Both the position numbers and the translations under genes were made by a program. Below are positions 15,823 through 21,184 of a DNA stretch of 64,000 nucleotides, in pieces; the stretch's first letter is position 1; every line of letters begins with the position of its first letter. The stretch is taken from the NCBI GenBank assembly GCA_030697205.1, contig JAUYQP010000047.1:1-64000 (forward strand), written 5' to 3'. The notes under the pieces were generated by a model, which ran no database searches, was not told where the DNA came from, and worked only from the letters and a program-made list of their open reading frames with translations. This DNA is from Mycobacteriales bacterium (lineage in GTDB: Bacteria > Actinomycetota > Actinomycetes > Mycobacteriales > SCTD01).

Positions 15823-17508
15823 ATGCCGCACCGGCCCGACGAGGCACCCCCCGGGCTGGTCGAGCTCCGCTTGCTCGACGGGCCCAACCTCTACTTCCCG
15901 ACAGCGACCGTGAAGGTCGTCCTCGACGTCACCGGGCCGCTGCACGCACCCGACCTCGCGTCCTGGGCGGCCGGGCTCGGTCGCGCCGACGAGCGACCGG
16001 GTACGCCGGACAGCGACCTGCGCCGCAAGGCCCTGCTGAGGGTGGCCGCCACGACCACCCGGGCCCTCGCGGCCGCGGCCGGGACCGGACGGCTCGCCGT
16101 CCGCGCCCGCAGCGGACCGGGGCCGGCCGAGGTCACCGTGGCCTTCCCCTGGCGGCGCCGCGAGCGCGGCCGGGCGCTCGGCGTCGCCCTGGCGGCAGCC
16201 TTCGCCGGGGTGCCCCTCGACGTCGCGGTCGCGCCCGTCCGGTCGGCCCGCGGCGAGGCCTCGTCGACCCCTCGGCCGCGCATCCCGGTCGTGGCGGTCA
16301 CCGGCACCAACGGCAAGACGACGACGACGCGGCTGGTCGCGCACATGGGGCGCTGCGCCGGGCGGGTCGTGGGGTGGAGCAACACCGACGGCGTGTGGGT
16401 CGACGGCGAGGTCGTCGAAGAGGGCGACTGGTCCGGCTACGGCGGGGCGGGTCGGGTGCTCGAGGACCCGGCCGTCACCCTCGCCGTCCTCGAGACCGCG
16501 CGCGGAGGCCTGCTGCTGCGCGGCTTCGGTGCGGCCTGGAACGACGTCTCGGTCGTCACCAACGTCAGTGCCGACCACCTGGGGCTGCAGGGCATCACGA
16601 CCCTCGACCAGCTCGCCGAGGTGAAGGCGATCGTGCCGCGCTCGACCCGGGCCGGCGGGTGGTGCGTCCTCAACGCCGACGACCCGCGGGTCCTCGCGAT
16701 GCGCTCCTCGTCGAAGGGGCGCCCGTGGGCCTTCTCCCTCGACCCCGACTCACCCGGGCTCCGGGCGGCGCTCGACGCCGGCGGCCGCGGCTGCACCCTG
16801 GCCGACGGCCAGCTCGCCGTCGTCTCCGGCGACTGGGAGGTCGACGAGCTGGTCCCGGTCGTCGACGTCCCGATGACGTTGTCCGGCCTGTCGACCCACA
16901 ACCTCGCCAACGCCCTCGCCGGTGCCGCGGCCGGGCTCGCGATCGGGCTGCCGCGCGAGGCGGTCGTCGAGGGGCTGCGGACCTTCCAGCCCGACGCGGC
17001 GCTCAACCCGGGGCGCCTCAACCTCTACGACGTGTCCGGTGCGGTGGTGTGCCTCGACCTCGCCCACAACGAGGACTCGCTGGCCGCGCTGCTGCGCGTC
17101 GTCCACGGTCTGCGGGTCCCTGGCGCGCGGGTCATCACGGTGCTCGGCGCGGCGGGCGACCGCGACGACGACGCCTTGCGGGCCCTGGGGCACCAGGCCG
17201 CGCACGGGTCGGACCTCGTGGTGATCGGTGAGAAGGAGCGCTACCTGCGTGGTCGGCCTCGCGAGGCCATGACGGCGCTGTTCCGCGAGGGGCTCGCCGA
17301 GGGCGGGATGCCCGAGGTCGACGCCTTCCCGGACGAGCTGTCGGCCCTGCAGGCGGCCGTGTCCCGGGTCCACCCGGGTGACGTGGTCGCCTTCATGTGC
17401 CACGCCGACCGGGCGCCGTGCGAGGACTGGCTCCGCTCCGCCGGCGCGGTGGCGCTGACCCCTGCGGCCGTCCGCGAGATGATCACCAAGGCAGCGGCGC
17501 GACGGTGA
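15823..17508 (+). CDS. Mur ligase family protein: CphA-like N-domain plus Mur-ligase domain, no ATP-grasp
   Basis: 561 residues. Residues 12-38 (LLDGPNLYFPTATVKVVLDV) align with the first strand region of the neighbouring cyanophycin synthetase (YRGPNFWSYDPAVHLVVDL). Residues about 90-127 match the end of the CphA N-domain (a PGxxxV..A pattern followed by GxxxGxxLA). The Mur ligase ATP site GTNGKTTTT (160-168) and the CphA-type ARGGLLLRGFG, SADHLGLQGI and CVLNADDP follow. The roughly 300-residue ATP-grasp domain that adds Asp in CphA is missing. All ATP-binding residues look intact, so it should catalyse ATP-dependent amide-bond formation, as the CphA M-domain does when it adds Arg. The substrate is unknown. 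It converges on cphA with 8 bp between stops. Confidence 0.8.
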   Translation: MPHRPDEAPPGLVELRLLDGPNLYFPTATVKVVLDVTGPLHAPDLASWAAGLGRADERPGTPDSDLRRKALLRVAATTTRALAAAAGTGRLAVRARSGPGPAEVTVAFPWRRRERGRALGVALAAAFAGVPLDVAVAPVRSARGEASSTPRPRIPVVAVTGTNGKTTTTRLVAHMGRCAGRVVGWSNTDGVWVDGEVVEEGDWSGYGGAGRVLEDPAVTLAVLETARGGLLLRGFGAAWNDVSVVTNVSADHLGLQGITTLDQLAEVKAIVPRSTRAGGWCVLNADDPRVLAMRSSSKGRPWAFSLDPDSPGLRAALDAGGRGCTLADGQLAVVSGDWEVDELVPVVDVPMTLSGLSTHNLANALAGAAAGLAIGLPREAVVEGLRTFQPDAALNPGRLNLYDVSGAVVCLDLAHNEDSLAALLRVVHGLRVPGARVITVLGAAGDRDDDALRALGHQAAHGSDLVVIGEKERYLRGRPREAMTALFREGLAEGGMPEVDAFPDELSALQAAVSRVHPGDVVAFMCHADRAPCEDWLRSAGAVALTPAAVREMITKAAARR

Positions 17509-17516
17509 TCATCTCG

Positions 17517-20243
17517 CTACAGGTCGGGGTCGCCCACCGCGTGCTGGCGGGCGCCGGCCTGGGCCACGTGGGACCGGGCCTCGACCTCGGCCCAGACGGC
17601 ACTCGCGTCGTCGACGCAGAGCACCACCAGATCGCCCGGGTTCGCCAGGTCCATCGCCCGCTTCACGGCGGCGATCTCCGCCAGGACGATCTCGACCGTC
17701 GTGGTGCGTGAGCCCTGCGCCCCGCGCACGCCCTCGGCGACCAGGGCCGCCAGCTCACCCGCGGGCCGACCGCGCAGCCGCGCGTCCTCGCGCAGCACGA
17801 TCGTGTCGAAGCAGCCGGCCGCGACCGTGCCGAGCTCGCGCAGGTCCTCGTCGCGCCGGTCGCCCGCTGTGGCCACGACGGCGATCCGGCGAGACCGCTC
17901 GATGGAGCCGGGCGCCGGCGCGGTGAGCTTCTCGACGAAGTCGGTGAGCATCCGCATGCCAGCGGCGTTGTGGCAGTAGTCGATGAGCACGGTCACGCCG
18001 TCGACCTCGGTGATGTTGAGGCGACCGGGCGCGAGGTAGTAGGACGTCGTGAAGGTGCGCAGGCCCTGCCGGATGTCGTGCAGCGGAGCGCCCGCGGCGA
18101 AGGCGGCGGCCGCCGCGGCCAGTGCGTTTTGGACGTTCATGACGGCCTTGCCGCCGAAGGTCGCGGGCAGCAGGTGGGTCCAGGCCAGCTGCATGGCCCG
18201 CCGGCCGTGGCGGATCACGATCATGTCGCCGAGCTCGCTGCGCTCCAGGACGACGGCCCGGCCGCCCCTGCGGCAGTGGCCGTCGACGCGCTGCCACTCC
18301 GGAGAGCCCGGCTCCGACATCGAGAACCAGATGACGTCACCGCTGCAGGCCCTCGACATCGCGGCGACCAGCGGGTCGTCAGCGTTGAGGACCGCGAAGC
18401 CGTTGCGCGGCACGGCCTCCACGACGACCTGCTTGACCTGCGCGAGCTGCTCGACGGTGTCGATGCCCTGCATCCCCAGGTGGTCAGCCGCGATGTTGAG
18501 CACGACGCCGACGTCGTTGCGCTCGTAGCCGAGGCCCTCGCGCAACAGCCCACCACGGGCGACCTCGAAGACCGCGAAGTCCACGCGGGGGTTCTGCAGG
18601 ACCATCCTGGCCGAGCGCGGTCCGGAGGCGTCCGAGCGGATGACGAGCCGCTCGTCGATGACGATGCCGTCGGTCGAGGTCATGCCGACCTTGCGCCCGA
18701 TGCCCTTGAAGATGTGGGCGATCATCCGCGAGGTCGTCGTCTTGCCGTTGGTGCCGGTCACCGCGACGATCGGGATCCGGGAGGGCGCGCCCGGCGGGAA
18801 GAGCAGGTCGATGACCGGCTTCGCGACGTACTGCGGCTCCCCCACCGTCGGGTTGGTGTGCATGCGGAAGCCCGGCGCCGCGTTGACCTCGACGATGCCA
18901 CCTCCCGCCTCACGGACGGGGTCGGTGATGTCGCGCGCGATGAAGTCGATGCCCGCGACGTCGAGGCCCACCACGCGGGCGGCCTCCTCGGCGATCTCGA
19001 CGTTGTCGGGGTGCGCCTCCATCGTGCGGTCGATGGAGATGCCACCCGTCGACATGTTGGCGGTGAGGGTGAGCTTGACGAGCGTGCCTGCGGGGGGCAC
19101 CGACGACAGCGAGAAGCCCTGGGACTCGATGAGCTCGCGGGCCGCGTCGTCGAGGGTGATGCGGGTCAGCACCTTCTCGTGGCCGACGCCGCGTCGCGGG
19201 TCGGCGTTGGTCTGGGCGACGAGGTCCTCGACGCTCTGCCGACCGTCGCCGATGACGTGCGCCGGCACCCGCTCGGCGACCGCCACCATCCGGCCGCCGA
19301 CGACGAGGAAGCGGTAGTCGGAGCCGGACAGGAAGGTCTCGACGAGGACGTAGCCGTTGCGTGACTGGCCCTTGGCGACGTCGTAGGCCTTCGCCAGCGC
19401 GGCGTCGTCGCGGATGTCGAGCCCGACCCCACGACCGTGGTTGCCGTCGAGCGGCTTGACCGCCACCGGCCAGCCCAGCGACACGGCGACCTCGCGGGCG
19501 CCCTCGACGGTGCGGACCGCGGTCGAGCGCGGCACGGGCAGCCCGGCCGCACCGAGCAGCTTGATCGTCATCTCCTTGTCGGAGGCGATGTCGACCGCGA
19601 GGTTGGAGGTCAGCGAGGTCATGGTGGCCCGGATCCGCCGGGCGTGGACGCCCTGCCCGAGCTGCACGAGGGACCCGCTGTTGAGGCGCATCGTCGGGAT
19701 GTCGCGCGACACGGCCTCGTCGACCAGCGCCTGCGTCGACGGGCCGTAGGCCGCCTTCTGGGCGAGCAGCAGCAGTGTCTCGACCTCGGCGTCGAAGTCG
19801 AAGGCAGGGTCGGCCTGCACCAGGTGGTTGACCAGCCGCACGGCGAGCTTGCCGGCCGCGACACCGACGGTCTCGTCGGAGTAGGCGTAGATGACGTTGT
19901 AAACGCCAGGCTCGCCGGTGCCGCGGGTCTTGCCCCGGCCGACCTCGGCTCCGGTCATGCGCTGCAGCTGGATCGCGACGTGCTCCGCGACATGACCCAC
20001 CCAGGTGCCCTCGCGCAGCCGCTCCGCGAACCCGCCCTTCTTCTTGCGCGAGCAGGAGTGGTCACCGACCTCAGGCAGCAGCCGCAGCAGCTCGTCGACG
20101 AAGCCGGGCAGCGCACTGGTCGGGTGGGCCTCGAGGACGCCCAGGTCCACCACCAGGTGCACGGCGGGGTCGTAGGACCAGAAGTTCGGCCCCCGGTAGA
20201 CGCGGCTCGACCGGATCGTCAGGTCGGGGGCGGGGCTGGTCAC
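17517..20243 (-). CDS. cphA: Cyanophycin synthetase
   Basis: 908 residues, the usual CphA length. The N-domain (1-160, RGPNFWSYDP) is followed by an ATP-grasp domain (about 190-470) with VAVKPLDGNHGRGVGLDI, TLTANMSTGGISIDRTMEA and EVNAAPGFRMHTNP, which adds Asp to the backbone. A Mur-ligase domain (about 480-908) with GTNGKTTTSRMIAH, ARGGLLREGLGYERNDVG and AADHLGMQGID adds Arg to the Asp side chain. Both active sites look complete. The product is the multi-L-arginyl-poly-L-aspartate nitrogen/carbon store, kept as cytosolic granules. The GTG start at 20243 overlaps the stop of the cyanophycinase gene (GTGA), so synthesis and degradation enzymes are translationally coupled. Confidence 0.95.
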   Translation of the reverse strand: MTSPAPDLTIRSSRVYRGPNFWSYDPAVHLVVDLGVLEAHPTSALPGFVDELLRLLPEVGDHSCSRKKKGGFAERLREGTWVGHVAEHVAIQLQRMTGAEVGRGKTRGTGEPGVYNVIYAYSDETVGVAAGKLAVRLVNHLVQADPAFDFDAEVETLLLLAQKAAYGPSTQALVDEAVSRDIPTMRLNSGSLVQLGQGVHARRIRATMTSLTSNLAVDIASDKEMTIKLLGAAGLPVPRSTAVRTVEGAREVAVSLGWPVAVKPLDGNHGRGVGLDIRDDAALAKAYDVAKGQSRNGYVLVETFLSGSDYRFLVVGGRMVAVAERVPAHVIGDGRQSVEDLVAQTNADPRRGVGHEKVLTRITLDDAARELIESQGFSLSSVPPAGTLVKLTLTANMSTGGISIDRTMEAHPDNVEIAEEAARVVGLDVAGIDFIARDITDPVREAGGGIVEVNAAPGFRMHTNPTVGEPQYVAKPVIDLLFPPGAPSRIPIVAVTGTNGKTTTSRMIAHIFKGIGRKVGMTSTDGIVIDERLVIRSDASGPRSARMVLQNPRVDFAVFEVARGGLLREGLGYERNDVGVVLNIAADHLGMQGIDTVEQLAQVKQVVVEAVPRNGFAVLNADDPLVAAMSRACSGDVIWFSMSEPGSPEWQRVDGHCRRGGRAVVLERSELGDMIVIRHGRRAMQLAWTHLLPATFGGKAVMNVQNALAAAAAAFAAGAPLHDIRQGLRTFTTSYYLAPGRLNITEVDGVTVLIDYCHNAAGMRMLTDFVEKLTAPAPGSIERSRRIAVVATAGDRRDEDLRELGTVAAGCFDTIVLREDARLRGRPAGELAALVAEGVRGAQGSRTTTVEIVLAEIAAVKRAMDLANPGDLVVLCVDDASAVWAEVEARSHVAQAGARQHAVGDPDL

Positions 20244-21184
20244 GAGGCCTCCGGGTTGTTCGTACGGCGGGCGGATCGGGACGTGCGGCCGGTCCCGACA
20301 CCCTCGGCCGCGACACGCCTCGCCAGGCCGCGCAGGCCGGCAGAGGGCAGCGCCGGCGCAGGCTCGCGCAGGTCGTCGGCGCGGCCGCTCACCGTCGGCA
20401 GCAGCACCCTGTCACGCAGGTCGAAGCGCGCCCCTGCCGGCAGCGAGTGCACCACCGCGCCGGAGACGAGCAGCGGGTCGGAGCGGCGAGCGGTGTCGAC
20501 GTTGGAGGAGATGCCCGAGCCGTCGAAGATCGTCACCGCGCCCCGGCCGACGACCTCGAGCCAGCGCTGCTCGGTGACGAGCGCGGCGGTGTCCTCGTCG
20601 ACGCCGATCCCGAGCAGGTGCGGTGAGTGCGCGACCAGGGTCAGCAGCCGGCCGTAGCGGTTGCGCTGGTCGAAGTGCTGGTCGACGACGACGCCCTGCA
20701 CCAGGCCGAGCCCGGCCGACATCTGCACCATCCGCAGCTTCGGCGTCGCGCCCTCGGCCCCGAAGGCGACCATGTGCTCGCTCTGCCCGGACGCACCCGC
20801 GCTGGTGCCACCCACCACGGCGCCCCGGCGGTGCGCGTCGAGGATCGCGGTCCCGAAGGGCGTCCCGGCGAGTGCCCCGGCGAGGGTCATCTGGTTGCCG
20901 CCGGTCATGAAGACCCCGGTCGCGTCGGTGAGCGGCGCGACCAACGCCGGGTCGGCCGCCTCCGTGCGCGTCGTCGGCAGCGGCCCGCGCACGTCGGTCA
21001 CGCCGAGCCGTCCGAAGGCCTCGCGGTAGAGCTCGACCGCCTCCTGCCCGAGCGACGACGCGGTCGCCACGACGGCGATCCGCGCGTCGGGGCCGCCGGC
21101 GAGCCGGACGAAGCGCTGCAGGACCACACGGGCCCCGACCTTGTCCTCGGCACCGCCGATCATCATCAGAGGGCCGGGCGTCAT
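20240..21184 (-). CDS. cphB: Cyanophycinase (peptidase S51)
   Basis: 314 residues. Cyanophycinase is an exopeptidase that releases beta-Asp-Arg dipeptides from cyanophycin. The nucleophile elbow GGTSAGAS places the catalytic Ser at about residue 128. MMIGGAEDKVGARVV at the N-terminus and FMTGGNQMTLAG, GLGLVQGVVVDQHFDQRNRYGRL and GIGVDEDTAALV are family hallmarks. The protein is about 40 residues longer than the cyanobacterial enzyme because of an Arg-rich C-terminal tail ending NNPEAS. It is the first gene of the cphB-cphA pair. The spacing to the upstream whiB (58 bp) leaves open whether all three are in one transcript. Confidence 0.93.
   Translation of the reverse strand: MTPGPLMMIGGAEDKVGARVVLQRFVRLAGGPDARIAVVATASSLGQEAVELYREAFGRLGVTDVRGPLPTTRTEAADPALVAPLTDATGVFMTGGNQMTLAGALAGTPFGTAILDAHRRGAVVGGTSAGASGQSEHMVAFGAEGATPKLRMVQMSAGLGLVQGVVVDQHFDQRNRYGRLLTLVAHSPHLLGIGVDEDTAALVTEQRWLEVVGRGAVTIFDGSGISSNVDTARRSDPLLVSGAVVHSLPAGARFDLRDRVLLPTVSGRADDLREPAPALPSAGLRGLARRVAAEGVGTGRTSRSARRTNNPEAS

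Follow-up and report, generated by a model that had tools for sequence, protein, structure and literature searches.

A Mur-ligase-type relative of cyanophycin synthetase without the ATP-grasp domain accompanies one clade of CphA

The window analysed here (the whole stretch of 64,000 nucleotides from contig JAUYQP010000047.1 of a Mycobacteriales bacterium) contains an intact open reading frame of 561 residues at positions 15823-17508 of the forward strand. Its product, termed P below, consists of a CphA-derived N domain and a Mur-ligase M domain without an ATP-grasp domain. The adjoining cphA gene, on the reverse strand at 17517-20243, encodes a full three-domain cyanophycin synthetase of 908 aa with an intact Cx19HxxEH motif (TIGR02068, 1144 bits; cut-off 850). 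Next to it, at 20240-21184 and also on the reverse strand, lies cphB, encoding a cyanophycinase that passes the curated NCBIfam cut-off (TIGR02069, 234 bits). P and cphA are convergent (tail to tail) with an 8-bp gap between them. A perfect 14-bp inverted repeat with a 16-nt loop (17474-17517) spans the 3' ends and stop codons of both genes and is a possible shared two-way terminator; a search for RNA families near the P gene found none.

In Pfam searches P matched Mur_ligase_M (residues 159-370) and Mur_ligase_C (residues 397-525), both above cut-off, and the same two models matched 18/18 members of the P family. Pfam gave no match of P to an ATP-grasp domain and none to the CphA N-domain model PF18921. 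The closest PDB matches in a sequence search were CphA1 chains, covering residues 127-525 only. Scores against curated models were well below threshold, with 373.6 bits for the CphA model TIGR02068 over residues 152-527 only (cut-off 850) and 105.7 bits for the best MurE equivalog model (cut-off 476). As Pfam and phmmer alone miss the N domain, its assignment required comparison of profiles and folds. Alignment of the P and CphA N-domain profiles with hhalign gave a score of 45.9 and an E value of 1.3e-6 over 154 columns, the maximum among 60 column-shuffled controls being 20.2; this comparison was limited to the N domains with the P-loop region removed, the P-loop dominating the alignment when included. 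An AlphaFold model of P (27 orthologues; pLDDT 93, pTM 0.92) superposed through residues 10-541 on TeCphA1 (7wae_A), with 512/561 residues aligned at an rmsd of 2.5 Å and a Z score of 53.8, against Z values of about 32 and 340-390 aligned residues for ordinary Mur ligases in the same structural comparison. The model of a P from the non-actinobacterial branch likewise superposed on SuCphA1 (549/575 residues, 3.3 Å). In the predicted structures, the N and M domains of P thus superpose jointly on CphA, the ATP-grasp domain is simply absent and N is joined straight to M. The first-pass annotation had proposed a protein with an N domain and a complete M domain but lacking ATP-grasp, linked to cphA-cphB, and Pfam, the profiles, the AlphaFold superposition and the neighbouring genes agree with it; the first 150 residues, which it had singled out as the part to check, match the CphA N-domain fold by both profile and superposition. 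Some P proteins are longer, as shown for those of Terrabacter type (loci L037, L038, L064 and L065), whose C terminus is extended by about 170 tetratricopeptide-like residues (TPR_5 at E 1.8e-24 in the one member scanned).

The N domain of P comprises approximately residues 10-130 (15850-16212, forward strand), its start being set by the VIA-align superposition from model residue 10 together with the hhalign alignment. Near its beginning lies a DGPNLYF loop (residues 19-25; 15877-15897, forward strand) that is near-invariant among P proteins. The correspondence between DGPN in P and RGPN in CphA noted in the first-pass annotation is real, D19-G-P-N22 being equivalent to the GPN-Y14-W-S-I17 loop of SuCphA1. 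In SuCphA1 this hydrophobic loop with Y14 and I17, studied through Y14S/I17T variants, makes contact from the N domain to the M domain (PMC9262961), and the DGPN loop is probably conserved in P because the equivalent loop packs N on M. The N domain had also been described as shortened, which it is, but it is not merely shortened: the Cx19HxxEH peptidase motif, reported in 83% of CphA1 (PMC9262961), was found in 0/52 P copies, against 49/50 of the CphAs paired with P, the CphA of the window included. The mean net charge of the P N domain was +7 in Actinomycetota and -9 elsewhere, so that one common mode of polymer binding is not assured. Two further explanations for the pairing were discarded. 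P as a supplier of primers to peptidase-less CphAs was ruled out by the motif count in paired CphAs, and the idea that the M domain of actinobacterial CphA is dead and helped in trans was dropped because its catalytic residues are intact.

The M core of P (approximately residues 153-396; 16279-17010, forward strand) contains the P-loop GTNGKTTTT (residues 161-169), the Mg ligand E224, D251/H252 and K268, and is followed by the lid (approximately residues 397-540; 17011-17442, forward strand), in which R398, H415 and GDR447 are kept and the presumed amino-acid pocket is altered. Positions at least 90% conserved in both P and CphA are the P-loop, E224, D251, H252, K268, N363, R398, H415, N416, GDR445-447 and RGR476-478. 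This set includes the positions matching Lys499, Glu558, Arg731 and His748 of TeCphA1, residues that contact ATP or Mg (PMC9427784). With the catalytic residues kept, P should be an active ATP-dependent ligase, and the earlier suggestion of a single amino acid being attached to an Asp side chain would be compatible with their conservation. The GD(Y/W)SG loop, at residues 201-205 of P, presumably faces the acceptor and is largely common to P and CphA, which makes an Asp-type carboxylate acceptor likely.

P and CphA differ in the lid at three acidic positions. In the CphA of the window these are D800, D820 and D878, equivalent to D781, D801 and E857 of SuCphA1, and each is acidic in 50/50 paired CphAs and in nearly all other CphAs. 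In P, the first position is Asp in 7/51 sequences, the second Asp in 3/51 and Glu in 12/51, and the third an acid in 0/51, while Tyr474 (48/51) and Arg530 (42/51) are specific to P. In the protein of the window, the presumed donor loop EKERYLRGR (residues 470-478; 17230-17256, forward strand) has lost the acid of CphA Asp820 and gained the family-specific Tyr474, and H527-R530 (17401-17412, forward strand) stands in place of the Asp878 position. We take the three lid loops in which P and CphA differ to be those that hold the incoming amino acid in MurE. By analogy with the donor-binding loop positions of MurE, D800, D820 and D878 are presumed to form the arginine pocket of CphA; they could instead belong to a charged, polymer-guiding surface of the lid. 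The loss of acids at sites that probably recognize the arginine side chain suggests that P uses a different donor, possibly one that is neutral or acidic. Both arginine motifs in which the donor carboxylate is expected to be held are retained. It has to be considered that P duplicates the reaction of the CphA M domain, namely the attachment of arginine to the terminal Asp, and so boosts the slower step or makes starter peptides; both proteins have the Mur catalytic residues, GDR and RGR, and this, together with the position of P next to cphA, fits such a role. However, the loss of acids that are near-invariant in CphA, with Tyr474 and Arg530 present instead, speaks against arginine as the donor, and starter peptides from P seem unnecessary when the paired CphAs already carry the primer-making Cx19HxxEH motif, so that this explanation is considered unlikely.

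The distribution of P was assessed in genome searches that were not conditioned on cphA. P was found in 95 genomes, of which 92 also contained cphA, mostly on the same contig and in two different conserved arrangements. In Actinomycetota, P occurred in 40 genomes; cphA was detected in 38 of these, the other two being MAGs listed as 87% and 67% complete, and three genomes in the same samples had cphA without P. Among 101 genomes of the order of Lysobacter, P was present in 40 and accompanied by cphA in 39 of these. The order of Defluviimonas showed P in 11 genomes, all with cphA, and CphA alone in 4, while in the order of Pseudoduganella P was found in 4 genomes, all with CphA, and CphA alone in 51. 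P was detected in none of 146 cyanobacterial genomes, of which 63 had CphA. A second branch of P, sharing 29-35% identity with the P of the window, extends through Proteobacteria, Acidobacteria, Myxococcota and others, and the spread of P across bacteria is wider than the first-pass annotation had stated. In this branch, P usually lies directly downstream of cphA on the same strand, as seen in Lysobacter, Defluviimonas, Cysteiniphilum, Acidobacteria and Plesiocystis. In total, 47 P-cphA pairs were compared: 25, all from Actinomycetota apart from one Thermomicrobia genome, were convergent, and in the other 22 P lay downstream of cphA in the same direction. The order iadA-cphB-cphA-P recurred in many loci of the Lysobacter order, the gene upstream of cphB being read from its sequence as a putative isoaspartyl dipeptidase gene, iadA; clustering of cphA with cphB and dipeptidases has been reported (PMC10206079). 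The concern that homologues might mostly be unlinked to cyanophycin genes is answered by these counts, as they are overwhelmingly tied to them. That P acts on a substrate unrelated to cyanophycin, its neighbourhood being incidental, is very improbable given the co-occurrence with cphA, the shared contigs and the two conserved arrangements. Several beta-proteobacterial loci (L097, L103, L108, L126, L127 and others) have, just upstream of the full cphA, a gene for a second CphA of about 725-830 aa in which the P-loop and lid of the M domain are missing; this is a CphA2-like architecture in non-cyanobacterial genomes.

An M-domain tree separated P from CphA, with 98% support for CphA, and the CphAs partnered with P formed a cluster distinct from the CphAs of Bacteroidota, Cyanobacteria and Burkholderiales. 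The Mur-ligase tree is not safely rootable, the outgroup being a MurF-type ligase on a very long branch, and the direction of domain loss was not taken from it. The direction is better indicated by non-actinobacterial P proteins, in which a stretch between N and M matches the initial segment of the CphA G domain (hhalign score 48.1, E 2.2e-6). In view of this remnant, a full-length CphA that lost its ATP-grasp core is the most likely ancestor of P. A 701-aa CphA relative encoded in Duganella (L113:11286-13388, reverse strand), convergent with cphA, combines an N domain and a whole M domain with a degraded G domain and is possibly an intermediate towards a P-like form.

P and its partner CphA co-evolve. 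Mirror-tree comparison of their distances gave a correlation of r 0.86, where permutations reached 0.19 at most, and values of 0.86 and 0.83 within the two branches. P is the faster-evolving of the two, with a mean identity of 54% and 43% in the two branches compared with 65% and 62% for CphA. Co-evolution and the retained N-M arrangement of CphA would also fit a non-catalytic P serving as a regulator or structural subunit of a CphA assembly, but the P-loop, the Mg ligand and the lid residues are at least 90% conserved in both branches, which would be unexpected for a pseudoenzyme, and this role is regarded as improbable.

The C-termini of the partner CphAs were also compared. In 31/32 paired CphAs from outside the Actinomycetota (L079, L121, L151-L166, L195-L203 and L206), a variable linker is followed by the conserved tail D-x-(R/K)-G-(V/I/L)...E-x-x-D, whose final Asp is also the terminal residue of the protein. 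The ExxD tail was found in 0/74 unpaired CphAs and in 0/26 paired CphAs of Actinomycetota and Thermomicrobia, that of the window included. Such a tail could serve P for docking or even as its acceptor, and P might then act on CphA itself, docking on the tail or joining an amino acid to its terminal Asp and thereby tethering or priming the polymer. Besides the near-complete association among non-actinobacterial paired CphAs, a gene in which a CphA M domain is joined in frame to a complete P (L205:4172-7126, forward strand) is consistent with this; it occurs in one genome, which also has a separate full tailed CphA (L206), and could be real or an assembly effect. The tailed CphAs, however, form a single phylogenetic group and offer no independent contrasts, so that their association with P is not independent evidence, and the absence of the tail from actinobacterial partners further weakens the proposal, which is held to be quite improbable. 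Among paired CphAs of Actinomycetota and Thermomicrobia, a different motif, (G/S)DPDL, was observed near the C terminus in 11/26 (including the window cphA, L171, L183, L187 and L190) and in 0/69 unpaired CphAs.

The reading preferred here, with a probability of roughly 0.5, is that P is a competent Mur-type ATP-dependent amide ligase, derived from a CphA-like protein by loss of ATP-grasp, that partners one clade of CphA and uses a donor other than arginine to give capped or side-chain-modified cyanophycin; its activity, acceptor, donor and product are those we infer from the comparisons above. CphA binds its chain between the N domain and the M core (PMC9427784). With its own N domain still packed on M, P would probably offer the M active site either a cyanophycin-like chain or the Asp-bearing end of one; there it would phosphorylate the Asp carboxylate with ATP and then join the donor amine. 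The donor would probably not be arginine, as the three acidic positions of the presumed CphA arginine pocket are gone and the two arginine motifs are kept. Lacking ATP-grasp, P cannot add backbone Asp and would cap or modify a chain, not polymerize it, the predicted product being a capped or side-chain-modified cyanophycin. A bolder form of this proposal, put forward tentatively and on balance doubtful, is that "cyanophycin" is a two-enzyme product in Actinomycetota, Lysobacter relatives, Rhodobacterales-type bacteria, Acidobacteria and others, with CphA making the Asp-Arg chain and P adding a non-arginine amino acid on Asp side chains, on chain ends or on the C-terminal Asp of CphA, to give a polymer chemically unlike the cyanobacterial one.

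Accounts of cyanophycin synthesis name one enzyme, which is CphA1 or, in cyanobacteria, CphA2. Cyanobacteria are the group in which the pathway was elucidated, and P is absent from those genomes of the group that were sampled. A ligase that accompanies one CphA clade across phyla, and is absent from the Cyanobacteria sampled, means that a standard part of the pathway in those bacteria is uncharacterized, and that P-bearing bacteria may rely on two enzymes, not one, to make or modify cyanophycin. If side chains or chain ends are indeed changed, natural cyanophycins would differ among phyla and P would be a new tool for modified polyamides.

The open-licence literature describes CphA1 and CphA2 and yielded neither an M-only partner nor a characterized member of the P family, in keeping with the earlier remark that an M-domain-only form was not known as characterized. 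One report may concern P: Tetrasphaera MAGs contain a shorter cphA copy in series with cphA, near cphA-cphB, that is transcribed less than the long copy (PMC10687191). Tetrasphaera is a relative of the genomes with Terrabacter-type P, and the short copy, compared here by its description, was reported simply as a cphA copy (PMC10687191); it may be P. With CphA1 (PDB 7lg5, 7wae; TIGR02068), P shares the N fold and docking loop, the M core and lid, the relative placement of N and M and the Mur catalytic residues, but it differs in having neither ATP-grasp nor the Cx19HxxEH peptidase site, in the loss of three acidic lid positions and in a score of about 374 bits against the required 850. CphA2 resembles P in that it too derives from CphA1 with one activity left and no peptidase motif in its N domain (PMC9262961, PMC9427784), and it is the opposite case, as the first-pass annotation had recognized: CphA2 retains ATP-grasp and is without the M-domain P-loop and lid, whereas P retains M and is without ATP-grasp. 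MurE-type ligases share with P the Mur_ligase_M and Mur_ligase_C domains and their fold, but the N-terminal domain of P is of the CphA type and its score is far under the MurE cut-offs. P is a new, uncharacterized variant among the kin of CphA and the Mur ligases, distinct from CphA1, CphA2 and MurE.
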